Positions 9,661 through 23,578 of a stretch of DNA of 64,000 nucleotides are shown here, piece by piece; position 1 is the first letter of the stretch, and every line of letters begins with the position of its first letter. The stretch is taken from NCBI RefSeq assembly GCF_030408635.1, contig NZ_CP047198.1, forward strand, positions 1,054,001 through 1,118,000. The letters are read 5' to 3'. The notes beneath the pieces are model-generated. The model saw nothing but the letters and a program-made list of their open reading frames with translations. It did no database searches and was not told the DNA's origin. The position numbers and the translations under genes are program-made. This DNA is from Corynebacterium coyleae. GTDB taxonomy: Bacteria > Actinomycetota > Actinomycetes > Mycobacteriales > Mycobacteriaceae.

Positions 9661-10233
9661 TCAATTATATGATGTGAACAGGAGCGCTCCTTGGAACGGG
9701 AAGTCAGGAAATTCCGCTTCCGCCTCTTCCTGCCTCTCGGCAAGCTCCACGCTCCACCGTGAACGCTCGACAAGTTCGTCAAAGGTGAGCACCTCCGGTG
9801 ACTTGCGGTTCGAGCGGAAACTTTCAAAGCTACGGAACTTCGAGCCAATTCGGTTGCCTTGGGCGCGGCACAAATCGCACATGGGCCGATCGTCAGAAAC
9901 GAGCGTGGTTCAACCAAGTATGCACCGTCGCCAGTGTTTCCCTTGTTGTCCCTCTCGGCAATCCATCCGGCAAGGCTCTCCTTGGCGGCGTGAACCGTTG
10001 TCGAACCCCGAGGTGTCCCCGCTGCAAACGGGAATCGAGTCGAGGCTGCTGATGAGGTAGATAAGTTCGTTCGAGCCTTCCCGGTTCAAGATGATGGGGC
10101 CATCGGGTTTTGTCCCGTTCAGATCATTGCTTGGGGCCTGAAAACCGATCTCTCGAACTACGCCCGGCTCGTGCGCAACTTGAATCTCGAGCTGGCGACG
10201 CTGTTTTCGCAACTTTGCCGGAATCACTGCCAT
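9661..10233 (-). pseudogene. decayed gene, C-terminal part resembles DUF4263 (Shedu-like)
   Basis: A real start seems to exist at ATG 10233 with GGAG five bases upstream. The frame is protein-like to about residue 75 and is then interrupted by a frame change and a TGA at 9910-9912. The same strand resumes at 9882-9661 with a segment containing PEVLTFDELVERSRW, which resembles the C-terminal end of DUF4263 proteins (Shedu anti-phage nucleases typically end in a VxTYDELLERAR-like stretch). Another frame just upstream reads PRSFLTIG, also expected in that fold. I infer a broken Shedu-like gene. This rests on recalled family patterns only. Confidence 0.4.
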
Positions 10234-10290
10234 CTCTGCTCCTTCCACTGTCTCTTGAGCGGCACACGCTGCTACGCCGCTACATCGGAC

Positions 10291-10318
10291 TTGAAATGTT
10301 CAGTGCTCGCTGTATAGT
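10291..10318 (+). promoter_or_regulatory. cmtR-cadD promoter with overlapping direct repeat
   Basis: TTGAAA (10291-10296), 16 bp spacer, TATAGT (10313-10318), then 7 nt to the cmtR ATG, so the transcript should be leaderless. The sequence gttcagtgc occurs twice, between the two hexamers and again across the transcription start; this pair is a likely metal-regulated operator. Confidence 0.6.
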
Positions 10319-10325
10319 TCAGTGC

Positions 10326-10685
10326 ATGCTGACTATTGCTTCACGTCTCGACGTGATGAACCGCCTGGGTCGTGCACTGGCCGACCCCACTCGATCCCGG
10401 ATCATCTTGACCCTGCTCGACCATCCCGCTTACCCGGTGGAACTGTCCCGAGATCTGGACCTGACACGCTCGAGCGTGTCCAATCACCTGGCATGCTTGC
10501 GCGATTGTGGGATTGTCGTCTCCGAGCCCGAGGGGCGTCGGACGCGATATGAGATCGCCGATCCGCACCTGACGCAGGCGCTGACTACATTGGTCGATGC
10601 CACCTTGGCAGTAGATGAAGATGCCCCGTGCATCGATCCCGCCTGCTCGGTTGCCGGGTGCTACGCAGCTGGGGAGGACGCATGA
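10326..10685 (+). CDS. cmtR: CmtR-type ArsR/SmtB family Cd(II)/Pb(II)-sensing repressor
   Basis: A 119-residue winged-helix repressor. Cysteines stand at positions 57, 61 and 102, exactly the three metal ligands described for Mycobacterium tuberculosis CmtR (two in the recognition helix, here NHLACLRDC, and one in the C-terminal tail, APC). That register fixes the start at ATG 10326 rather than at upstream in-frame codons. Metal binding is expected to release DNA and induce the operon. The stop overlaps the cadD start (ATGA, 10682-10685). The promoter carries a direct repeat that suits autoregulation. Confidence 0.9.
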   Translation: MLTIASRLDVMNRLGRALADPTRSRIILTLLDHPAYPVELSRDLDLTRSSVSNHLACLRDCGIVVSEPEGRRTRYEIADPHLTQALTTLVDATLAVDEDAPCIDPACSVAGCYAAGEDA

Positions 10686-11284
10686 TCCTCACCACGGTCT
10701 TGCAGGCGATAGGCCTGTTCGCAGCTACCAACATCGACGACATCATCGTGCTCTCCCTCTTCTTCGCGCGAGGGGCAGGCCAGAGCGGCACCACCGCCCG
10801 TATTTTGGCCGGCCAGTACCTCGGATTTGCCGGCATCCTCGTCGCCGCGATCCTTGTGACCGTCGGCGCCGGAGCATTTCTGCCCCCGGCAGCTATTCCA
10901 TACTTTGGTCTCATCCCTCTAGGCCTCGGCCTCTGGGCCGCATGGGAGGCCTGGCGCGGAGACGATGACGACGATGACGACGAGGCCAAGGTTTCCGGCA
11001 AGAAGGTCGGCGTTTGGACAGTCGCAGGCGTCACGTTTGCCAATGGCGGCGACAACATCGGTGTCTACACCCCTGTATTCCTCAGCGTGGAACCTCTCGC
11101 AGTAGTTGCCTACTGTGTTATCTTCCTCGCGCTCGTTGCGGTCCTGGTGGCCCTGGCAAAGTTCGTCGCCACCCGCCCCCCGATCGCGGAAGTGCTCGAA
11201 CGCTGGGACGACATCCTCTTTCCCATCGTTCTCATCGGCCTCGGCATCGTGATCCTCGTCAGCGGCGGAGCCTTCGGGCTCTGA
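10682..11284 (+). CDS. cadD: CadD family cadmium resistance transporter
   Basis: A 200-residue inner-membrane protein with five to six hydrophobic segments. It has the CadD hallmarks: an ATNIDD segment near the N-terminus and a second FANGGDNIGVY segment in the middle, which repeat a common half-fold. An unusually acidic run, seven Asp in a row, sits in the loop between them (about residue 94-100) and could bind cations. It is translationally coupled to cmtR and is expected to export Cd(II). Overlap with the regulator gene and the terminator at 11511 define a two-gene operon. Confidence 0.9.
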   Translation: MILTTVLQAIGLFAATNIDDIIVLSLFFARGAGQSGTTARILAGQYLGFAGILVAAILVTVGAGAFLPPAAIPYFGLIPLGLGLWAAWEAWRGDDDDDDDEAKVSGKKVGVWTVAGVTFANGGDNIGVYTPVFLSVEPLAVVAYCVIFLALVAVLVALAKFVATRPPIAEVLERWDDILFPIVLIGLGIVILVSGGAFGL

Positions 11285-11639: not shown

Positions 11640-13050
11640 TGTCTGGTTCGGTGACATCGTTCCGCATGTCTCATGAGATTGTTCCGGTTTGTCCTGCGGG
11701 TATGTCTCGCCACATCGTTCCGGTGGAAAACGAGTCCACTGAAAATGCCCCACCGGGCCGAAAACCGATGTCTCGAGTCATCGTTCCGCCCATGCTTATC
11801 GGATGGAGAAACCAGGCAAGCCCACACCGAAAATCATCATCCAGACCATGCTCGCCACAGGCATGAGCCAAGCCGAGGCGGCTGAGCACTTCGGCGTTTC
11901 GACCCGGTGGATTAGAACACTGCAAAAGCGCTACCGAGAAGGCGGCATGGACGCGCTTACACCTCGATCAAAACGGCCAAGAACAAACCCAAGGGCGCTC
12001 GACAAAACAGTTGTCGACCGCATTCTTCAACTGCGCGACGAACTCACCCACCGCGGCACCGACGCCGGCGCTCACACCATCCGTTGGCACCTACAACAAG
12101 ACGGAATAGACCCTCCACCAGCAGTATCAACCATCCACCGAGTGCTTGCCAACAACGGACGCATCACACCACAGCCCCAAAAACGCCCACGCAGCTCTTG
12201 GCGTCGCTTCCAGGCAGACCAGCCCAACGAAACATGGCAAATGGACTACAGCGACTGGACCATCGCCGGACACAAACGCGTAGCCATCCTGACCATCCTC
12301 GATGACCACTCCCGATTCATCATCTCCTGCCGCGCCTACCACACAGCCACCGTCACAAACGTCATCACAAGCTTTATCGCAGCAGTTCAGGTACATGGCT
12401 GCCCACAATCAACGCTCACCGATAACGGCCGAGCATTTACCACCAACACCGACCGGAAAAACCCGTCACGAAACGGCTTCGAGCAACTGCTCATCGACTT
12501 GGGCATTACCCAGAAAAACGGCAAGCCCTACCACCCGCAAACCCAAGGCAAAGTCGAACGCTTCCACCACACACTCAAACTCGCGCTAAACAACAAGCCA
12601 CCAGCACAAACCATCGAGGAGCTCAACGAAGATATCAACGAGATCATCGACTACTACAACTACAAACGCCCACACAGAGCACTCGCCCGCATCACCCCAG
12701 CCGAGGCCTACAGCGCACTGCCCAAAGCCAAACCGGCAGCAGCAAACTTCGACCACCACTACCGGCTACGCACCGACAAAGTCAGCATCAACGGCAAGAC
12801 CACTCTGCGATGGGGCGGGAAATTACGCCGCCTCTACATCGGCCGACGCTGGGGCGGCGAACCCATCACCATGGTCTGCGTCGACAACCACGTCGACATC
12901 AAAATAAACGCCACCGGGGCACAAATCGCTGCCTACACACTCACCGACGAAAAGATCTACTACAACCAATCAGACAACGAACTAAACCCCAAACGGGGCA
13001 ACTCCAAAAACAAAAATCTCGAGACACCGTAGGAACGATGTCTCGAGACA
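11640..13050 (+). mobile_element. IS481-type insertion sequence
   Basis: The right end is ggaacgatgtctcgagaca (13032-13050). Its reverse complement recurs in variant form four times in the left 160 bp: at 11640, 11667-11686, 11703-11723 and 11769-11788, each of the form tgtct...atcgttccg or ttgttccg. The outermost copy is taken as the left end. No clear target-site duplication is visible. The single transposase gene is intact. A 44-bp relic of the right end is found at 9546. Confidence 0.75.
11803..13032 (+). CDS. IS481 family DDE transposase
   Basis: A 409-residue transposase. An N-terminal helix-turn-helix (AEAAEHFGVSTRWIRTLQKR, about residues 25-44) is followed by a second HTH-like region and an rve integrase core. 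The catalytic triad is visible as D in MDYSDW, D in LTDNGRAF and E in QGKVERFH. The start ATG 11803 follows the innermost copy of the terminal motif. The gene appears complete, and the stop codon lies inside the right terminal repeat region. The base composition is less GC-rich than the backbone. Confidence 0.9.
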   Translation: MEKPGKPTPKIIIQTMLATGMSQAEAAEHFGVSTRWIRTLQKRYREGGMDALTPRSKRPRTNPRALDKTVVDRILQLRDELTHRGTDAGAHTIRWHLQQDGIDPPPAVSTIHRVLANNGRITPQPQKRPRSSWRRFQADQPNETWQMDYSDWTIAGHKRVAILTILDDHSRFIISCRAYHTATVTNVITSFIAAVQVHGCPQSTLTDNGRAFTTNTDRKNPSRNGFEQLLIDLGITQKNGKPYHPQTQGKVERFHHTLKLALNNKPPAQTIEELNEDINEIIDYYNYKRPHRALARITPAEAYSALPKAKPAAANFDHHYRLRTDKVSINGKTTLRWGGKLRRLYIGRRWGGEPITMVCVDNHVDIKINATGAQIAAYTLTDEKIYYNQSDNELNPKRGNSKNKNLETP

Positions 13051-13415: not shown

Positions 13416-13444
13416 TTGAGATGTAGTCGGTGCGCACAATAATA
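13416..13444 (+). promoter_or_regulatory. candidate promoter of the precursor/membrane-protein cluster
   Basis: TTGAGA (13416-13421), 17-bp spacer, ATAATA (13439-13444). The ATG is 36 bp downstream, leaving room for the ggagg ribosome site at 13471. Inference from spacing only. Confidence 0.45.
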
Positions 13445-13480: not shown

Positions 13481-14044
13481 ATGATCTGTAAGAGAACTTT
13501 CGGAAAGGTTGCAGGGGCAGCTCTGATGGGAGTGGGGCTAGCGTTTGCGCCAGCTGCGTCAGCGGACGCACAAGAGGGGGACTATGCAGTAAGTCAGGTG
13601 GGCGATAATTCTTTCGTCCTACAAGGCGCTGATGGGCTGACTCGATCAACCTTGCCTGTTGATCAGCCGGGTGTCCAAGGCCGACACATAGAGCTGCAAC
13701 CTGGCGACAGAATTGAGATCAGCGGTGATGGACAAATCGCTGACCTGGTCAATAAAGACGGCGATGTCGTAGGTTCATTTACTGCACCACAGATCTATGA
13801 CGCTGACGGCAACGAGCTATCTGCAAGTTTTGTTCAATACGAAGATATGCTTATTCTTGCTGAAACAGGTCTTTCATCCCGTGATGCTTGCACCAAAGCT
13901 GCGGTAGGCAAGTGGACATACCGTGTAGGGGCTACTGGAGTATGCGGAGCGCTTGGTGCAGGGACTGGAGGTGTTGCAGCGGGAGCTTGCGGTCTCGGTG
14001 CAGCATGGGCAGAAGATAATATCAACTTTGATTCTGTATGTTAG
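13481..14044 (+). CDS. secreted precursor with four-Cys Gly/Ala-rich tail, putative bacteriocin 1
   Basis: A 187-residue exported protein. A signal peptide ends near ASA-DA (residue about 28). An acidic beta-rich domain follows (about 30-130), with the phrase LQPGDRIEISGDGQI. The tail holds four cysteines, C137, C155, C170 and C187, the last being the C-terminal residue, and the motif CGALGAGTGG. The same design, in the same spacing, recurs in the gene at 14341. A secreted precursor with a small hydrophobic Cys-rich tail next to a tiny membrane protein suggests a peptide bacteriocin and its immunity protein, in the style of halocin C8-like precursors. ATG 13481 has GGAGG eight bases upstream. 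Function is inferred, not recognised. Confidence 0.6.
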   Translation: MICKRTFGKVAGAALMGVGLAFAPAASADAQEGDYAVSQVGDNSFVLQGADGLTRSTLPVDQPGVQGRHIELQPGDRIEISGDGQIADLVNKDGDVVGSFTAPQIYDADGNELSASFVQYEDMLILAETGLSSRDACTKAAVGKWTYRVGATGVCGALGAGTGGVAAGACGLGAAWAEDNINFDSVC

Positions 14045-14055
14045 TGAGGGGAAAG

Positions 14056-14277
14056 ATGTCCAATTTTCGCAACCCGAAAAAAATCGCTACATCATTCGCC
14101 TACCTCATCGCTGGGATATGGGTCTACTGTCTGATCGTAGCTCCACTATTCTCTGAAGCCAGTTACGCCAATGTGGCCCTAGAGAAATCAAAAGATATCG
14201 GCATTGGATTTACGATTGTGGCGCTTCTTGTAGGGACCGTATGGTTCCTGTTTGCCAAAAATAAATCTGACGCATAA
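14056..14277 (+). CDS. small two-helix membrane protein, putative immunity protein 1
   Basis: A 73-residue protein with two hydrophobic segments (about residues 12-33 and 50-67) and a Lys-rich C-terminus. It starts 12 bp after the precursor gene and has the ribosome site GAGGGG before ATG 14056, so the two are almost certainly co-transcribed. No family is recognised. Small membrane proteins encoded just after bacteriocin precursors are often immunity factors; that is the basis of the call. Confidence 0.55.
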   Translation: MSNFRNPKKIATSFAYLIAGIWVYCLIVAPLFSEASYANVALEKSKDIGIGFTIVALLVGTVWFLFAKNKSDA

Positions 14278-14340
14278 AACCGTGTGAGGCTACCCTGCTT
14301 TTATTTGGCCTTCTTCTACAGCAAGGATTGGAGTAATCCG

Positions 14341-14868
14341 TTGAAAACTATTGTTTCTCGATTCGTACCAGTCGCAGCTATTACGGCAGCTGCTCTTGTT
14401 GGAGTTGCCTCTGTAAGTGCTTCGGCTTTTGCCGCTGAGTCAGTTTCTGCCGCAGCTTCCGAAGCTTCTGGCCAGAATGGTAAGGGTGATTTTTGGTTCG
14501 AGTCAGAAGACGGAATTCGCAGCTTTAACGTCGATGGCAACGTGCTGGTTCCTGAACTTCTTGATGGCGACAAGGTTGAGATCGAAGGAGACGTCATCAA
14601 CGCTTATGATGCCCAGGGAGAGGTTGTTGCAAGCCTCAAGGCAGACCTTCCTGAGGGAGTTGCTCTGAAGTATACCGATGGAGTGATTTACGCTGGCAGC
14701 GAGAGTGGCCAAGCCTCACGTTGCATCGATAATAAGTGGGTAGCTTTGGGCATCAATTACGCTGGCGATGCACTCGTCTGTGCTCCGCTCGCTGCCGGTA
14801 CCGGTGGTGCTGGCGCTGTTTTCTGCGGTGCAGCTGTAGGCGCTGGCGTCACTGCCGCCAGCTGCTAG
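14341..14868 (+). CDS. secreted precursor with four-Cys Gly/Ala-rich tail, putative bacteriocin 2
   Basis: A 175-residue paralogue of the gene at 13481. TTG 14341 is the likely start, as AAGGATTGGAG stands about eight bases upstream. The signal peptide ends near AFA-AE (about residue 31). The middle domain repeats the pattern of the first protein (LLDGDKVEIEGDVINAYD). The tail has C128, C147, C162 and C175, again with the last Cys at the very C-terminus, and the motif CAPLAAGTGG. Cys spacing is x18, x14, x12 against x17, x14, x16 in the first. An Arg just before the first Cys in both (SSRDAC, ASRC) may mark a processing point. Confidence 0.6.
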   Translation: MKTIVSRFVPVAAITAAALVGVASVSASAFAAESVSAAASEASGQNGKGDFWFESEDGIRSFNVDGNVLVPELLDGDKVEIEGDVINAYDAQGEVVASLKADLPEGVALKYTDGVIYAGSESGQASRCIDNKWVALGINYAGDALVCAPLAAGTGGAGAVFCGAAVGAGVTAASC

Positions 14869-14900
14869 TGCATTGATGTAGAAGCAAAAGGGTTTAAGAA

Positions 14901-15218
14901 ATGACAAAAGCAAACGGTAGCACTGTTGTAAAGACACCTATGGGACTGCCGGTTCCCCTACTTCTCTATGCAGCATCGATCGCGACTCTAATTGCTGCTG
15001 GATCGGCCGCTTCAATGTACAAACTAAGCTACCCATGGTGGGTGTGGATTGTAGAGGCATTGATCCTTTTCCCTATCGTTTATCGGATCTCTCGTAATTC
15101 TGCCAAGGGCAATGACTCCGGCGACTATGTAATTGTTACGGAGTCAAGGGTCATTGCATTTGCCACAATTTCAGCGATTGTGATTGCACTGCTGATCATT
15201 ATGATCGCTGTACTGTAA
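14901..15218 (+). CDS. small three-helix membrane protein, putative immunity protein 2
   Basis: A 105-residue protein with three hydrophobic segments (about residues 18-38, 45-65 and 84-105). It follows the second precursor by 32 bp with AAGGG upstream of its ATG. It is not obviously similar to the 73-residue partner of the first precursor, so each precursor has its own, unrelated membrane protein. The role as immunity or export factor is inferred from position alone. Confidence 0.5.
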   Translation: MTKANGSTVVKTPMGLPVPLLLYAASIATLIAAGSAASMYKLSYPWWVWIVEALILFPIVYRISRNSAKGNDSGDYVIVTESRVIAFATISAIVIALLIIMIAVL

Positions 15219-15290
15219 CAGCTGTGCTCTCTCCGGCGCCCATTGCCGTAGATATACCTAGGTCCCCGACGGGTCTTAGCCGGTTTATTG

Positions 15291-15322
15291 CCCCTGCATG
15301 TAGCAATGTAGGGGTAATTTTA
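15291..15322 (+). terminator. terminator after the precursor cluster
   Basis: Stem cccctgca (15291-15298) pairs with tgtagggg (15307-15314, one G-T pair), followed by taatttta. It ends the four-gene unit starting at 13481. Confidence 0.65.
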
Positions 15323-15465: not shown

Positions 15466-16242
15466 CTACTGCGTATTGGCTTCGAGGCGCATGTTCGGGC
15501 CTTCCAGCGTGATGATCTCAGCGCCAACGACAAGCCGATTCAGTATCGACTCGGCGATGACAGCATCCGGGATGGACTTGTACCACTCATCGGGCGTGAA
15601 CTGGGAGGTGACAATGGTTGATCCCCGGTGTTCACGCTCAGCAAGAATGTTGAGCAGCTGGTGTGCTGTGGCAGCATCAATCGGCGTTGTTAAGAAGTCA
15701 TCAAGCACGAGTACGTCTGCCAGGTGTAAGTCTTGAAGAAACTCCATGCGTGCTGTGTCATCATGGCGTAGCACCATTAGCTGGTTGGCCAGGGTGTCTG
15801 TGCGGAAGAAACGGGCAGAGTAGTCGTTTCTGCACGCAGCGGTAAGGAGTGCTTGGGCCAGGTATGTTTTGCCGACGGATGATTTGCCGAGGATGACAAT
15901 GCTTTGCGCTTTTTGACACCATTGGCAGTGAGCGAGTCTGGTGATTTGCTCTTTGTTGAGGTTGCGGCCGGGTGCGTAGGTGATGTCTTCGATACACGCA
16001 TCGAGATTTGGCGATCGGGATGCTTTGAGTAATTTGTTGACTCGTCGTTCACGCTTGGCCGCGACTTCTTTATCGAGCGCGTAGAGCACTTTGTCAGAAA
16101 AGCTCCACGAGTCGAAGACAGGATCTGCTGCAATATCAATCACGGTTCGGCCAAAAGCCGTCATACGTAGATCGGTAAAGACAGGCAGGATCGATTCATC
16201 AAGAAAGCGCGCTGATGCTGATGCTGGTTGTGGCTGTGTCAT
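15466..16242 (-). CDS. istB: IS21 family helper ATPase IstB
   Basis: A 258-residue AAA+ ATPase. Walker A is GKSSVGKTYLA (around residue 118) and Walker B is DVLVLDDF. The N-terminal region with basic residues is the IstB_N domain. It assists the IstA transposase by bending target DNA and stabilising the strand-transfer complex. The start overlaps the istA stop by four bases (ATGA type), so translation is coupled. The gene is intact. Confidence 0.92.
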   Translation of the reverse strand: MTQPQPASASARFLDESILPVFTDLRMTAFGRTVIDIAADPVFDSWSFSDKVLYALDKEVAAKRERRVNKLLKASRSPNLDACIEDITYAPGRNLNKEQITRLAHCQWCQKAQSIVILGKSSVGKTYLAQALLTAACRNDYSARFFRTDTLANQLMVLRHDDTARMEFLQDLHLADVLVLDDFLTTPIDAATAHQLLNILAEREHRGSTIVTSQFTPDEWYKSIPDAVIAESILNRLVVGAEIITLEGPNMRLEANTQ

Positions 16243-17873
16243 GACTGTAGGGGTCCTTTCTTCGTGAGGTTTTCCATACTGAACTGGGCAGACCCACCCA
16301 GATATGCGCCGCGGGTATCGCGTGCGTGTTCCACCGGTGGTGTTTCAGGCGCTGTTGTGGCTGGCAAATCATGGCCTGTCGGGCGGGTTGATTGGTCTTT
16401 GCGTACCGCGGCCATCATGTTTTTCACCGCGGTATACGACACTGCTCTCCTGGTGCCATCAGGTGCGATCAGGCGTGCACAGGCTTGTTCTAAAATCACT
16501 TTGTTGGCGTGTTTGCCCATATTCAGTACGTTTCGGCACGACTGAAATGCCTGGGCAGGGATTGCCTTTGCGCTGATGAGTTCTTCGATGACTGTCCGGG
16601 TTGCTGGCCCGATCTTGGCTGCTTCACGGTAGAAGTAGTCACTGGTCCACAACCCTGTGGTATCAGCCATGTTGGCAGGAATATGATCCACATCGGTGAC
16701 ATAGATTCCCCGGGCTTGGGCAAGCCGGTGGGTTGCAACACGCTGCCCGGCATCAAAGACGGTTACTTCATTGCCAGTGATACGTACATCGACAGTCCGG
16801 CCGACGAGCTGGTAAGGCACCGAATAACGTGCTGTGTTGACGGTGATGTGGAAGTTGGGGGCGACTTTCGCACGTTTCCATTCGGTATGCTGCCACGGTG
16901 TTGTGGGAAGTTCGCCGAGTACATCGCGTTCAAACTCGTCAAAGAGCATCCTTCTGCTGGTGTTGATGCCGCGAAACGGTACCGCGTCATTGATGCTGTC
17001 AACCAGGCTGCGGATGCGCGCATTGAGTTCATCGAGCCCAATACATTGATGTCCGTGGAGGGTGTGGATGACTTTTTGGGTGATGATCTTGACTGCTGCT
17101 TCTACATTCGCCTTATCCTTTGGACGCCGAGCACGAGCAGGCAGCGCGGCAGTGTTGTAGTGCTCAAGGAATTCCTCGTAGGTGGAATTGACCTGCCGGT
17201 TGCGGTCAGCAGCACTAATTGCGTGGGATGCTGTCGAAGCATTGTCCGGCACGATGACTTCAGCAACCCCGCCGAAGTATTCAAATGCTTGGATATGCGC
17301 CCACAGCCACGCTTGTTGCCGCTGGTTCGGGCAAGCACAGGCAAACAACATGCCGGAATACGGCAGTGACGCCACGAAAATGCTGACTTTTGCACCCCGA
17401 GCATCAGTTGGGTCGAACAGGCGCATTGCGGTGCCAGCCCAGTCGACTTGCATGGTGTGTCCCGGGGCATGGGTAATGCGTGCGGTAAGTCCTGTGGCAT
17501 CGACGTGTTCAGCAACAAGCTGGCGGAAACGCTCGTAGCTGTAGTAACGCTGGGACGGGTGGGCTGGTTGGGTGGTGTAGCGGCCCCACAAGACTTGGAG
17601 AGTGACTTTGTTGCGGCCGGTACGTGCTTTGGCCACTGCGTCAAAGTCGATGGGTACGAAGTCGCCTTGGGCACCACTTCGGCCATCGACAAACCATGTG
17701 GCCATTTCTTCGTCGGTGATACCGGCGAGTTGTTCACCGGTTGTGATCTGGTGTGCCGCCATTGTGTGGCGGGCTTTTTGAACTGTGGTGTGTGAGCATC
17801 GCACAGTCGAGCAGATTTGGCGGACGGACCAGCCTTGTAAGACAAGGTCCATCACAGCCCGGTAATCAGTCAC
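16239..17873 (-). CDS. istA: IS21 family transposase IstA
   Basis: A 544-residue transposase. An N-terminal HTH (QGWSVRQICSTVRCSHTTVQ, about residues 13-32) precedes an rve core with the catalytic D in MQVDWAGT, a second D in IVPDNAST and E in DKANVEAAVK. A C-terminal beta-barrel region follows. It is full length for IS21 and lies between the repeated end sequences. It is likely functional, since neither gene of the element is broken. Confidence 0.92.
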   Translation of the reverse strand: MTDYRAVMDLVLQGWSVRQICSTVRCSHTTVQKARHTMAAHQITTGEQLAGITDEEMATWFVDGRSGAQGDFVPIDFDAVAKARTGRNKVTLQVLWGRYTTQPAHPSQRYYSYERFRQLVAEHVDATGLTARITHAPGHTMQVDWAGTAMRLFDPTDARGAKVSIFVASLPYSGMLFACACPNQRQQAWLWAHIQAFEYFGGVAEVIVPDNASTASHAISAADRNRQVNSTYEEFLEHYNTAALPARARRPKDKANVEAAVKIITQKVIHTLHGHQCIGLDELNARIRSLVDSINDAVPFRGINTSRRMLFDEFERDVLGELPTTPWQHTEWKRAKVAPNFHITVNTARYSVPYQLVGRTVDVRITGNEVTVFDAGQRVATHRLAQARGIYVTDVDHIPANMADTTGLWTSDYFYREAAKIGPATRTVIEELISAKAIPAQAFQSCRNVLNMGKHANKVILEQACARLIAPDGTRRAVSYTAVKNMMAAVRKDQSTRPTGHDLPATTAPETPPVEHARDTRGAYLGGSAQFSMENLTKKGPLQS

Positions 17874-19151: not shown

Positions 19152-20432
19152 ATGACACTGACCAACCACCAACGCGAAGAAGTCTTGGGCCGTATTGAAA
19201 ACTACGCCCCTCTAGGCACCGACGCCGGCACCTGGGAACACATTGCTCACTTCGTTCGTGAGACCGCGAAGAAGGCGACTGTCGGGTCGGAAACCGGGTC
19301 GAAGGTGTTCGTTGCGGACCAGAAGTCGAGCGTCGACGTTCGTGGTGTACTGCGTGTGCTGACCCGAGCCTCCGCGAGAGCGTTCAACTCCGGGCGTGCG
19401 CTCACCGTTGACACGGTGCTCAGCGACGCGAACGTCTCAGCGATACTCGCAACCTTGAAGTCGAGGAACTCGGTTTCTCAAGAAGCCTACCTCTACCGGC
19501 TCGTGCGCGAGGCGCTCGACGGCCAGGAGTTGTCGTTGTACCACCGACGGGACATCGAAAAGCCGCCGGCACAGCCGTACAAGCCGAACGACTGGCAGCG
19601 CCTGCACCACTGGGTTGTTTCACAGTCCACAGAGCTTCGCCGCGAGCGTGCGGCCGTCATTGTCGGCTTGGGCCTTGGTGCCGGCATTGGGCCAGAGGTT
19701 GCACGGGTCAAAGCCCGTGACGTCACCCTTGACCCGGACGGGGTGGTGTGGGTTGCGGTGCCGCACCGTGTCGCCGAAGGCGCGGCGCCCGCTGTTCCTG
19801 TGGCGGCGGCACTGGCTCGAAATGTGTGGGAGGTGGCGCAAAAGCGTGAACCCGACGAGTTGCTGCTCGGTGGCGCAGAGAGCGACGTTCGCGAAATTAC
19901 GAAACGGTTGAACCTGAACCGTTCGTTCAGGGTCGAACTCGACAGGTTGCGTGCGACGTGGGTGCGTGAGGTGGTGCGAAATTTGCCGCGCGAAACTGCG
20001 GCGGCCGCGGTGGGCACTGACCTCCTCAGCTTTCGTCGCCTTGAGAAAACCGCGCGTCTTGACCCGGCCACACCCGACTCGCTTGCCGACAGGCTCGACG
20101 TGTTGGCAGACCCGCTTCGAGACTGGCCGGCGCTGCGGTTGTCCGAGGCCGCACCTGTGGCTGACGTAGGGGAAGGTACAGGTTCCGTCCCGGTGTCCGA
20201 CGCGGTGGTCGTGTCGTTGCCGAAGCCGGAAGCAGACAGCGCCACGCGCGGCGACGGGACCAGGGCTGCGGCACCGGAACCAGGCCAGCAGGCCACCGTC
20301 GCCGACCTCGACGCGCACCGCCCACAGCGGGCACCCCGCTCAATTTCGAGCGAACTGCCTGCCCCCGAAGAGGGTCGTCTTACCGACTTTGCCCGCGGAC
20401 CGAACCCCGGTACGGAAAGTCGTGGGTGGTAG
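19152..20432 (+). CDS. tyrosine-recombinase-like protein A, catalytic residues lost
   Basis: A 426-residue protein with the layout of a tyrosine recombinase. The box I region reads GLGAGIGPEVARVKARDV: where active enzymes have Arg (GLRxxEL) there is Gly180. Box II keeps an Arg (RLRATWVRE), but the HxxR His is Asp. The position of the nucleophile Tyr is Phe294 (LLSFRRLE). It is a paralogue of the next gene (shared AFNSGR/VFNAGR block in the N-terminal domain). A Pro/Ala-rich tail of about 100 residues follows the core. It is likely a non-catalytic DNA-binding partner. The start is ATG 19152; upstream in-frame codons overlap the operator. Confidence 0.6.
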   Translation: MTLTNHQREEVLGRIENYAPLGTDAGTWEHIAHFVRETAKKATVGSETGSKVFVADQKSSVDVRGVLRVLTRASARAFNSGRALTVDTVLSDANVSAILATLKSRNSVSQEAYLYRLVREALDGQELSLYHRRDIEKPPAQPYKPNDWQRLHHWVVSQSTELRRERAAVIVGLGLGAGIGPEVARVKARDVTLDPDGVVWVAVPHRVAEGAAPAVPVAAALARNVWEVAQKREPDELLLGGAESDVREITKRLNLNRSFRVELDRLRATWVREVVRNLPRETAAAAVGTDLLSFRRLEKTARLDPATPDSLADRLDVLADPLRDWPALRLSEAAPVADVGEGTGSVPVSDAVVVSLPKPEADSATRGDGTRAAAPEPGQQATVADLDAHRPQRAPRSISSELPAPEEGRLTDFARGPNPGTESRGW

Positions 20433-20497
20433 GCATGTTGACCTGCGAAATTGCAGTGTTTGTCCAGGCAGAACATTCGGGAGCACGTCGTATTCGT

Positions 20498-20511
20498 GTG
20501 CATGTTTGCAC
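20498..20511. promoter_or_regulatory. palindromic operator, copy 3
   Basis: gtgcatgtttgcac, the same palindrome in the opposite orientation of spacer, in the gap between the two integrase-like genes. Confidence 0.65.
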
Positions 20512-20531
20512 GCTGTGGACCTTGACGTCGT

Positions 20532-20545
20532 GTGCAAATTTGCAC
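20532..20545. promoter_or_regulatory. palindromic operator, copy 4
   Basis: gtgcaaatttgcac, a perfect 14-bp palindrome, 34 bp (about three helical turns) from copy 3 measured start to start, and 82 bp upstream of the second integrase-like gene. Confidence 0.7.
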
Positions 20546-20626
20546 ACACTGGGGCTAACTCTTTCCACCATAGGAGTAGCCCACGCCACCACCACCTTGT
20601 GTGTGGGCGGACAAGGACAAACGAAT

Positions 20627-21619
20627 ATGACCACCACAACCACCCGCAAGGACGTCCACCAGGTCATTGCGGCCTACACCCCGAAAGTTGTCGAACCCCA
20701 CGAATGGGACGTTGTCGCACCGTTTGTGCGCGAGCACGTCGCCGCTGTCGCCAGTGCCGACTGGTCGGCTGACCAGTGCCGAAACGCACTTCGACTCGTG
20801 ACCCGACTCGCGGTGCATGTCTTCAACGCTGGGCGAGACGTCAGCGTTGCAGCCGTGTTTAGCGAGGGTGCTATCAACGCATTTTGCCACCAGGAGCTCG
20901 ACACCGCGGCAACGCACGTCCGTGGCACGTCACGGGCGACGCTGCGCCGGATCGCCAAGCAAGTCAACCTGAACTTCGACGGACCGCGTCAGCGCCCCGA
21001 GTACGGCAACGAAACGAAGGCCGCACCGTACACCGAAGCAGAAGTGCTTGGCGTAAAGACCTGGGCTGACGCTGAGCACACCGAGTCTCGTCGCCAGCAG
21101 GCGAACCTGCTGCTTGCACTTGCACTTGGCGCAGGGCTTCGCTCCGGCGAGGTCGCAAACCTCACGGCCGGCGACGTTGAGACCGACGCGCAAGGCACCG
21201 TGGTCTACCCGTGGGGCTACCGAGGGGCGGACAAACGGTTCGTGCCTGTCGAGCGCGAGTGGGCAGGCGTTGTTGCTCAGGCCGTCGAGAACGCAGCAAG
21301 CCGTACAGAGTGGCTGTTTCGGCCAATGCGGACAACCGCCGACTCGGGCACCGTTGCGACGTTTACGAAACGCTCTCCGCACCGGGGCACCGTGCTCGAC
21401 ATGGCACGGGCACGGACAACCTGGCTTGTCAACCAGATCAAAAAGGGCGTGCCGGAGACCGCCGTCGTCGAGGCCGCGGGGCTTTCCGACTTGCAGCACT
21501 ACCGGCAGTTCTTGGTCGAACCGACACACGTTTCGGCGCGCGAGGCGAGAAGCCTGCTGTCCGGGACGTTGCACGAGACGCCGAAGCGAGGGCTGACGCT
21601 TATTCACGGCAGCGCGTAG
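20627..21619 (+). CDS. tyrosine-recombinase-like protein B
   Basis: A 330-residue protein. An N-terminal helical domain (about 1-110) precedes a catalytic-type domain. Box I is intact in its Arg (ALGAGLRSGEVANL, R172). The second Arg (R263, ARARTTW) aligns with HxxR, but the His position is Ala. A Tyr (Y292, LQHYRQFL) is near the expected nucleophile position, three residues early. It could be weakly active or use the partner protein. ATG 20627 has AAGGA nine bases upstream. It is flanked on the left by two palindromes and on the right, 102 bp away, by the DDE gene. Confidence 0.65.
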   Translation: MTTTTTRKDVHQVIAAYTPKVVEPHEWDVVAPFVREHVAAVASADWSADQCRNALRLVTRLAVHVFNAGRDVSVAAVFSEGAINAFCHQELDTAATHVRGTSRATLRRIAKQVNLNFDGPRQRPEYGNETKAAPYTEAEVLGVKTWADAEHTESRRQQANLLLALALGAGLRSGEVANLTAGDVETDAQGTVVYPWGYRGADKRFVPVEREWAGVVAQAVENAASRTEWLFRPMRTTADSGTVATFTKRSPHRGTVLDMARARTTWLVNQIKKGVPETAVVEAAGLSDLQHYRQFLVEPTHVSAREARSLLSGTLHETPKRGLTLIHGSA

Positions 21620-21721
21620 GCGCTTTCCACACAAACTTCTAACCCCATAAAACACCTGGTCGCGACCCAGGGTGAGTTTTCTATTGCCAAAAACAGACCA
21701 CTTGAAAAGGAGGTGACAACA

Positions 21722-23578
21722 ATGTCGAAGGGACTTCGCACACGCAAATACGCACCCGCGAAGAAAGGCCACCGCCACAGCGTCCGCCTCGTTGAGGAGC
21801 GCCGCGTGTCCTACGCCAACTTGCAGTTGGCCCAGCGCATTGTTGACGCCTCCGGAGCGGTTGGCCTCGTGGACTCCTGGCGGGTCGCTGACGGGCTGAA
21901 AACCGACAAGGGCGGCCGCCCGCCCGAGGTGGACACCCGCGCGGCGCTCACACTTTGGACCTACCAGGCAGTTACGCAGTCCCCGCAGCTCATTTCGCAC
22001 ATGGCAAGGTCGGTTGCCTTCGGCTTAGAGGGCAAGGGCTGGGAACTTCTGGGGCTCACCCCATTCGACTGGGACGAGTCGGACCCGAAGGCGCATTTCG
22101 ACACCTACATGACCTGGTACAAGCGCATTGCTGCCTGCCTCGACCGCGTTCGCGCGACCATTGAGCCCTTCCCGGAAGTGAGCAAGAAGAAGCGCTACAC
22201 CGTCGAGGAGTGGGTGCCCTTCATTGCGTACTACGACGAAGAGAAGGGCAAGAAGGAAGTTCTCGCCCGCGTCGAGGAGCGAAAGGCCCGCGGCGTCGAG
22301 CTCACCAACCGCCTTGTGTGGGCGACTGTGGAACTCATGGACCCCGAGGCCTTCGCCAAGTGGAACGGCGACATTGCCGTTGACGGCACCATTATTCCGG
22401 TGTCGAAAAACGGCAACCCGAGCAAGAAGGAGATGCTCGCCGGTAAGGCGAATAAGCACCGTCTTGTCGCTTCGACTCCGACGCTCGGCTGGCACGCCAA
22501 GGAAGGCGACCACGACGGCGAGAACACGAAGAAGACCGCGACGCACACTTGGGGTCTTGAGGCCACCGTCGTCGCCATGTGCGGTGAGGGTTTTGCCGAA
22601 CCGGGTGGCGCTCCGGGGCTCATTCTCGGGGTGACTGGCGGAGTACCTGCTGTGGCACCGTCGAAGCGCGTGTTTGAGTCGCTGAAAAACCTCATCGACC
22701 GCCCAGAACTCCCGCGCCGGCACTTCATTGCCGACCGCCTGTACTCGCCGGGTCAGAACCCGGTGAAGTTCCAAATGCCTATGCGCAAACTGGGCTACGG
22801 GTTCGTCGCTGACATGCGCCGTGACACCCGTGGTGTGCAGACTATTACGACGTCTGGCGCGCCCATTGTGGACGGTACTGCGTACTGTCCTGCAATTCTC
22901 AACATGCCGCGCCTGCTCGACCCCTACACCGCGTGGGAAAAGGGGCAACTGACCGACCAGCAGTTCTCAAACCTGCTTCAGGCCCGCAAGCGTCTCGCGC
23001 TCGCCCGTTATGGCACGAGGCCGAACAAGAAGGGCGACGTGCGACTGGGTTGTCCTGCCCGCGCAGAGGGCGCGGAAATTACCTGTCCGCTCGTGCCGCC
23101 TGCCGAGGAAGGCAAGAAGAAGGCCGGCTTCCAAAAAGACGAGCTGACCGACTCCGAGGTGCCCTCCAAGGCGTCCTGCCCCAAGGTGTGTCAACAGCGC
23201 ACGGTGACGCTGAAGAACACCGCCGAGGACGGCGCGAAGTTCCTACAGCACGGTCCGGCATTTATGACCGCCGAGTGGCGCAAGGAGTACGGCCGCCGCA
23301 ACACCATTGAGTCGCGCAACGCCATGCTCAAGAACGGCTCCTACCAGGGTGCAGGCGACGTCACCACGCGCCTTATGCGCGGTTGGGCAGCACAAATGCT
23401 GTGCATGGCCATGGCCGCGGTGGGGGTGAACCTCGCCATGCTCGACGCTGCTGCCTGGTCTCGCCCGCACACGGGTCAGAAGCCGACTCCGCCACCGCCG
23501 CGGGGCGGCCGCAAGCCTGACGCGGACGACATTGAGCAATGGAAGTTGGGCGACAACGCACCGCCGAAGGCGGCATAA
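21722..23578 (+). CDS. DDE transposase-like protein with Cys cluster
   Basis: A 618-residue protein. The probable catalytic triad is D221 (AVDGTIIPV), D338 (FIADRLYS) and E530 (NTIESRNAMLK). Between the second D and E lies a long insertion with four cysteines, C444, C455, C486 and C490, likely a zinc knot. This layout recalls IS1182/IS4-type transposases, but no terminal inverted repeats were found around it. The start is ATG 21722: an exceptionally strong Shine-Dalgarno, AAAAGGAGGTGA, ends six bases upstream, unlike any neighbour. It ends 250 bp from the tRNA. It probably works with the integrase-like pair. Confidence 0.65.
   Translation: MSKGLRTRKYAPAKKGHRHSVRLVEERRVSYANLQLAQRIVDASGAVGLVDSWRVADGLKTDKGGRPPEVDTRAALTLWTYQAVTQSPQLISHMARSVAFGLEGKGWELLGLTPFDWDESDPKAHFDTYMTWYKRIAACLDRVRATIEPFPEVSKKKRYTVEEWVPFIAYYDEEKGKKEVLARVEERKARGVELTNRLVWATVELMDPEAFAKWNGDIAVDGTIIPVSKNGNPSKKEMLAGKANKHRLVASTPTLGWHAKEGDHDGENTKKTATHTWGLEATVVAMCGEGFAEPGGAPGLILGVTGGVPAVAPSKRVFESLKNLIDRPELPRRHFIADRLYSPGQNPVKFQMPMRKLGYGFVADMRRDTRGVQTITTSGAPIVDGTAYCPAILNMPRLLDPYTAWEKGQLTDQQFSNLLQARKRLALARYGTRPNKKGDVRLGCPARAEGAEITCPLVPPAEEGKKKAGFQKDELTDSEVPSKASCPKVCQQRTVTLKNTAEDGAKFLQHGPAFMTAEWRKEYGRRNTIESRNAMLKNGSYQGAGDVTTRLMRGWAAQMLCMAMAAVGVNLAMLDAAAWSRPHTGQKPTPPPPRGGRKPDADDIEQWKLGDNAPPKAA

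Follow-up and report, generated by a model that had tools for sequence, protein, structure and literature searches.

In Corynebacterium coyleae, two tandem two-gene modules each encode an exported precursor ending in a four-Cys tail and, directly after it, a small membrane protein; each pair is probably a Sec-exported, protease-released, membrane-active bacteriocin with its cognate membrane immunity gene. The modules lie in a window of 64,000 nucleotides (the whole stretch of DNA analysed) from a genome assembled as a single contig of 2.5 Mb. Judged from sequence comparisons, these modules and their relatives in other Corynebacterium genomes behave like a bacteriocin family with its own immunity genes, and this family appears to be undescribed, as neither an activity nor a description of the four-Cys precursors was found in the titles and abstract openings of the papers that literature searches listed. 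In the proposed mechanism, Sec would export the precursor, and the acidic, beta-rich middle would hold the hydrophobic tail in solution and prevent its activity. A protease outside the cell, from the producer or foreign to it, would then cut just ahead of the first tail Cys, often beside an Arg. The freed peptide of 47-55 residues, closed by two disulfides, would enter and permeabilise the membranes of related bacteria, and the adjacent protein, with two or three transmembrane (TM) segments in the producer membrane, would block the peptide encoded beside it.

The four plus-strand genes follow one another in the order precursor A, membrane A, precursor B and membrane B, between IS elements (Table 1). 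The sequence-only reading had placed them within mobile DNA, and this agrees with the rve transposase on the left and the IstB plus Mu/rve-type transposase on the right. GGAGG stands upstream of the precursor A ATG and GGATTGGAG upstream of the precursor B TTG, while GAGGGG precedes the membrane A ATG at 14056, which has another in-frame ATG at 14038. The same reading had set all four genes between one promoter and one terminator. The terminator part of this claim stands, as the hairpin at 15287-15318 is strong (z -4.16, 0 of 200 shuffles as good), with the reservation that it is absent from the output of a consensus terminator scan. A single promoter for all four genes is not established, because the candidate site matches the consensus at 10 of 12 positions only and promoter-like sites are common in the region (6 found by a consensus scan, 2.0 expected). 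Further out, an ArsR-like regulator adjoins a CadD-like membrane protein (both by eye) at 10110-11284, left of the IS elements. At 20426-23578, a phage-type integrase (Pfam 5.8e-07) lies beside a 621-aa protein that has no Pfam match and looks transposase-like by eye; this stretch is further mobile DNA on the right side.

Table 1. Features of the two modules and their flanks, in positions of the window.
Feature	Position	Strand	Basis or remark
IS transposase (integrase core), left flank	11803..13032	+	rve_3 3e-18, rve 7.5e-16
Promoter-like site, TTGAGA-16-AATAAT	13416..13443	+	10/12 consensus match, unproven
Precursor A (187 aa), with signal peptide, acidic middle and four-Cys tail	13481..14044	+	ATG 13481, stop 14042-14044
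Residues 137-187 of A, the predicted mature peptide with four Cys	13889..14041	+	Cys columns, tail conservation; cleavage inferred
Candidate immunity protein of A: small membrane protein of 73 aa with 2 TM predicted	14056..14277	+	
Precursor B (175 aa), with signal peptide, acidic middle and four-Cys tail	14341..14868	+	TTG 14341, stop 14866-14868
Residues 128-175 of B, the predicted mature peptide with four Cys	14722..14865	+	Cys columns, tail conservation; cleavage inferred
Candidate immunity protein of B: small membrane protein of 105 aa with 3 TM predicted	14901..15218	+	
Terminator hairpin, then TTTT	15287..15318	+	-22.3 kcal/mol
IstB-like ATPase, IS21-type element, right flank	15466..16242	-	IstB_IS21 3.1e-45
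Transposase of the same IS21-type element as IstB	16239..17873	-	Mu-transpos_C_2 7.6e-21, rve 1.5e-08

Precursors A and B had been described from the letters alone as two paralogous exported proteins, 187 and 175 aa long, whose middles are acidic, and coordinates, charges and homology all agree with this. The two are homologous across the middle and the tail (hhalign probability 98.5%, E 3.9e-15), their signal peptides are recognised by reading the sequence, and the middles carry net charges of -14 (A) and -13 (B), compared to 0 and -1 in the tails. The Cys spacing given earlier (x17-18, x14, x12-16) and the motif C(G/A)xLxAGTGG are likewise present, as C137-x17-C155-x14-C170-x16-C187 with CGALGAGTGG in A, and as C128-x18-C147-x14-C162-x12-C175 with CAPLAAGTGG in B. 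Among the precursor relatives analysed, the tail starts at the first of the four conserved Cys and ends at or beside the last, and the four columns are invariant in 7/7 aligned A-type and 14/14 aligned B-type sequences. Tail and middle statistics cover 19 sequences (7 A-type and 12 B-type, the row for L005 being partial). All 19 have a tail of 47-55 residues with four Cys and a net negative middle (-2 to -14), and the tails range from -2 to +3 in charge, from 31 to 48% in Gly+Ala content and from 0.36 to 1.19 in mean Kyte-Doolittle hydrophobicity, which is moderate. In 15 of the 19, at least one of the four residues ahead of the first tail Cys is Arg or Lys; the other 4 have neither there.

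The tail is the more conserved part of the precursor, with a mean pairwise identity of 56% against 34% for the middle in the A-type and of 57% against 30% in the B-type (12 sequences); for the membrane proteins, this value is 26-27%. Values of dN/dS of 0.15-0.28 for the precursors (5 pairs) and 0.18-0.60 for the membrane genes (4 pairs) indicate that both kinds are real genes under purifying selection. In a sixth precursor pair, precursor A of the window (13481-14041) and its copy L108 in genome G215 differ by 3 nonsynonymous and 0 synonymous changes. No B was seen beside the copy in G215 (L186), and precursor A there is probably a recent transfer. Structure models were too poor to support a fold, with a mean pLDDT of 44 for A (one sequence) and 57 for B (two sequences) and mostly below 50 in the tails. 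Residues 31-80 of the B model, in the middle, are predicted to be beta-rich, with a mean pLDDT of 70-84 per ten residues, and the B model matched no PDB fold at E <= 0.001. A glycine zipper in the tails is not supported beyond composition, as the number of patterns observed (5 for A and 2 for B) was reached or exceeded in a fraction of 0.15 (A) and 0.43 (B) of the shuffles. A short exported ORF in G078 (L017) has an A-like signal peptide and no four-Cys tail.

The same anatomy could belong to a contact-dependent toxin or to one active as the whole exported protein, its middle being a binding or delivery part and not a removable prodomain. This is unlikely in our view, even though the A middle resembles a domain of large proteins (hhalign probability 82.5%, E 9.8e-6) and A as a single sequence matches three loci of the same genus, L013-L015, at E 5.6e-4 to 0.0065. 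In A and B the middle is short and acidic and its conservation falls below that of the tail, and the B profile has no match to that set of domains, all of which speaks against this alternative.

Relatives of the precursors were searched for across the genus, in 201 genomes with A and in 242 genomes with B, and 28 places were kept, 11 of the A-type (E <= 1.7e-10) and 17 of the B-type (E <= 2.1e-5). Matches in 6 of 17 genomes were dropped from the A search (L013-L018, E 5.6e-4 to 0.0096), among which L016 and L018 look unrelated, as were 4 of 21 places from the B search (L035-L038), which are frames without the tail. L002 (E 0.0196) was dropped before the counts, and L019, a B homologue in a Corynebacterium glucuronolyticum MAG, was counted once with L023, as both are the same contig. 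A same-strand small membrane gene lies downstream of the precursor at 28 of 28 places (11/11 A-type, with a frameshift in L011, and 17/17 B-type), and in the places measured it starts no more than 98 bases past the precursor stop. At L019/L023 and L028, this gene was first read from the raw translation and then confirmed by profile (L150 and L160). The short membrane protein reported closely after each precursor of the window, of 73 and 105 aa, is thus a constant neighbour in all 28 tail-bearing relatives, which is the point on which the sequence-only reading had proposed to check itself; none of these relatives proved to be without such a gene or to fall into a known non-toxic family. In a separate scan, a small ORF with at least two TM followed 22 of 22 precursor-like ORFs, as opposed to 11 of 126 other genes; these controls, of at least 150 aa, come from the same loci and therefore represent module flanks and no random sample of the genome. 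Among the 11 positive controls, 3 are broken or divergent precursors of the family and 4 stand before orphan membrane genes of the family.

Distances between precursors and between their membrane proteins are correlated in both types, with r 0.77 for A (7 pairs; reached in 24 of 5000 permutations) and r 0.82 for B (12 pairs; reached in 0 of 5000). Such a correlation would be expected of cognate pairs, and equally of adjacent genes that are inherited together without interacting. In eight neighbourhoods of 9-11 kb, read by eye from the starts of the ORFs, no recurring third gene, enzyme, transporter or protease was seen, and transposase-like ORFs (by eye) lie near 4 of the 8. The A-membrane-B-membrane tandem also occurs in G100, at 48% and 52% identity, and the other loci around membrane genes hold at most one module within the stretch covered. 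The modules are scattered across the genus, with IS elements near some copies. In G006 (L185), a B-type module lies between two inverted transposase-like ORFs of 237 aa whose sequences agree in all of the 70 residues read, which by eye is the layout of a composite transposon.

The membrane gene outlasts its precursor. Profiles of membrane proteins A and B, each run on 242 genomes of the genus, gave 75 membrane-gene places (31 A-type and 44 B-type), and upstream of these an intact precursor was seen in 25, a broken precursor or remnant in 16 and none in 34. The 25 intact cases comprise 23 plain ones, L129, where the N-terminus is uncertain, and L172, where the four-Cys precursor is divergent; L115 and L143 were scored as remnants by eye, and L120 was scored as none, its upstream 79-aa exported ORF being without the tail. 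Of the 34 places without a precursor, 14 have E <= 1e-14 and some others are weak membrane matches, while at two (L165 and L179) the upstream sequence covered is only about 365 bases. Four long-frame rows and two second halves were dropped from this search. Counted from the precursor side, 7 of 28 precursors are broken, by an in-frame stop or by a lost end or core, as compared to 1 of 28 membrane genes, and starting from membrane genes, 7 of 75 are split or bear a stop (L126, L130, L159, L161, L162, L174 and L176); each search is biased towards intact copies of the gene with which it was run, and a stop or frameshift in one genome is possibly a sequencing error. Since the membrane gene persists without the precursor and the reverse was unseen, with 0 of 28 precursor places devoid of a membrane gene, the pattern is the one expected of a toxin and its immunity gene, and fits these better than a helper in export or processing. 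From the window alone, each pair had been proposed to consist of a peptide bacteriocin, made as a large precursor, and the immunity protein belonging to it; this is supported indirectly, by the constant adjacency and by the persistence of the membrane genes. What is shown is the anatomy and the genetics, and killing, the cleavage site, the disulfides, the membrane target and the matching of membrane proteins to tails are putative.

A helper of this kind would be a membrane protein that aids the export, folding or processing of the precursor, whose product would be non-toxic, such as a signal or a surface peptide. Strict adjacency and correlated divergence suit any obligate partner, and processing could need a helper; the plausible Sec signals, on the other hand, mean that export needs none. 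Given that a helper without a client should vanish first, the 34 membrane genes with no precursor seen, the 16 with only a broken one and the lack of any precursor place deprived of its membrane gene make this explanation quite unlikely. A toxin-antitoxin pair that acts within the producer to stabilise the chromosome or a mobile element has in its favour the two-gene size and the place beside IS elements, and is nevertheless highly improbable in view of the signal-peptide-like start, the conserved Cys suited to the outside of the cell, and a partner that is a polytopic membrane protein and persists alone. In G082 (L172, 1786-2391, minus strand), a divergent four-Cys exported precursor that the B profile barely matches (E 0.04) is followed by a B-type membrane protein, and the B-type membrane family may pair with further types of precursor.

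No convincing family for the precursors or the membrane proteins was found in Pfam, NCBIfam or PHROG, nor a convincing relative among solved structures, and weak matches were set aside (NTPase_P4 at 0.02 for A, HslJ at 0.00078 in 2 of 14 B-type members, CcmC at 0.035 for membrane protein A, and All3320 in the PDB at 0.047). Neither A nor B matched the plasmid and phage collections, and viral contigs gave no match with profile A1. Halocin C8 has a Cys-rich C-terminal peptide of about 76 residues with ten Cys, and the N-terminal part of its precursor is reported to be the immunity protein. The relation to halocin C8-like precursors that had been suggested for A and B survives as a likeness in design, a precursor with an active hydrophobic, Cys-rich C-terminal part, and fails as family membership. 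The model TIGR04449 (halocin_C8_dom) matches the halocin C8 peptide at 1.1e-16 and 61.5 bits, and has no match to A or B at E <= 10 (A of the window being the A-type member scanned) and none among 14 B-type members at E <= 1. Unlike halocin C8, A and B have four and not ten Cys in the tail, and the candidate for immunity in their modules is a separate membrane gene.

No model of lactococcin 972 or of any other bacteriocin matched A or B at E <= 10 in Pfam and NCBIfam, which presumably include a model of lactococcin 972, and A and B differ from lactococcin 972 in precursor size, Cys pattern and partner. The modifying enzyme or dedicated transporter expected beside the precursor of a modified bacteriocin (RiPP) was not seen to recur in the eight neighbourhoods, read by eye without a family search. 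Genome mining of respiratory Corynebacterium predicted unmodified secreted bacteriocins of the lactococcin 972 type (class IId) along with linaridin, lanthipeptide and other clusters, and the available part of this survey includes nothing that resembles the A/B family (PMC12188740).

Precursors activated outside the cell are described for haloarchaeal halocins in the available part of one report (PMC12893001) and for the bacteriocin PAMP of Propionibacterium jensenii in another (PMC5756557). PAMP is made as a propeptide of 198 aa with a 27-aa signal peptide and is activated by extracellular proteases; its active piece is a fragment from the C-terminus with a mass of 6383 Da, and two arginines enclose a site for proteinase K (PMC5756557). 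Compared by description, A and B resemble PAMP in precursor size and in the layout of signal peptide and C-terminal fragment, with the tail as the putative active piece, and the Arg or Lys near the first tail Cys in 15 of 19 relatives would fit activation by proteases of the PAMP type. Unlike the modules, a membrane immunity gene is not described for PAMP in the available text (PMC5756557). EsxX and TspA are membrane-depolarising toxins with membrane immunity proteins; a C-terminal glycine zipper, polytopic immunity proteins and, for EsxX, immunity genes that are often orphans are described (PMC12744356, as far as its available part goes), which provides a published parallel to the orphan A- and B-type membrane genes. 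In contrast to EsxX and TspA, LXG proteins secreted by the type VII system, A and B have a Sec-type signal and four Cys, and the LXG family is not among their Pfam matches at E <= 10.

Should the bacteriocin reading be true, a genus that is common on the skin and in the airways of humans has an undescribed set of small bacteriocins that were missed by the family libraries searched, and many of its strains hold the immunity without the weapon. These modules could then explain the exclusion of one strain by another in the skin and airway microbiota, and could provide narrow-spectrum peptides for study. As they consist of two genes with no enzyme beside them, activity, cleavage and specificity are directly testable.

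Outside the genus, the profiles were searched against 396 genomes (A2) and 296 genomes (A1), with no more than 8 and 11 candidates, respectively, scored in each genome. Among 20 loci read from the weak rows, including L046, only L048 had the middle domain. L048, matched weakly by the A profile (E 0.0166), is an exported protein from a genome of the same class, with a middle domain of the form ..PWAYDAAGRTVPTHYEV..ADP and a small membrane gene next to it (two TM by eye). L013-L015, within the genus, have the same middle domain, here of the form ..APWAYDVSGRKVPTWYEV..VADP in frames of more than 700 aa, without the four-Cys tail. A search with the 78-aa domain of L048 matched 32 of 201 genomes of the bacterial family, in 11 of 31 genera, and gave no row from Corynebacterium at E <= 0.001; the copies in the genus therefore fall below this cut-off or outside that sample.

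This ADP-type domain heads both short precursors with a Cys tail and large proteins, and Pfam and NCBIfam hold no family for L048, L084, L095 or L099. Among the short precursors, L084 and L086 have a 3-TM gene directly after them and L099 a 2-TM gene at +82, and no two-TM gene was seen for L090, L093, L095 and L098. Three of the large proteins (L085, L094 and L104) have Gly-rich ends, and no more than 16 bases separate each from a membrane ORF after it (89-166 aa). By profile comparison, the short ADP-domain set is linked to A and not to B, and the relation of the A middle to the domain of large exported actinobacterial proteins is suggestive. It is conceivable, and we put it forward tentatively, that an actinobacteria-wide class shares one exported prodomain (..PWAxDxxGxxxxTxY..ADP..) with swappable C-terminal toxins, many with membrane immunity partners. 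The C-termini in such a class would extend from pore-forming peptides with four Cys, A and B standing at this short end, up to large proteins whose ends are rich in Gly. If this were true, Corynebacterium would hold undescribed Sec-exported, protease-released bacteriocins and widespread orphan immunity genes. The exported-looking actinobacterial proteins that carry the ADP-type domain, including L076-L105, vary in their C-termini, and some of these look toxin-like.
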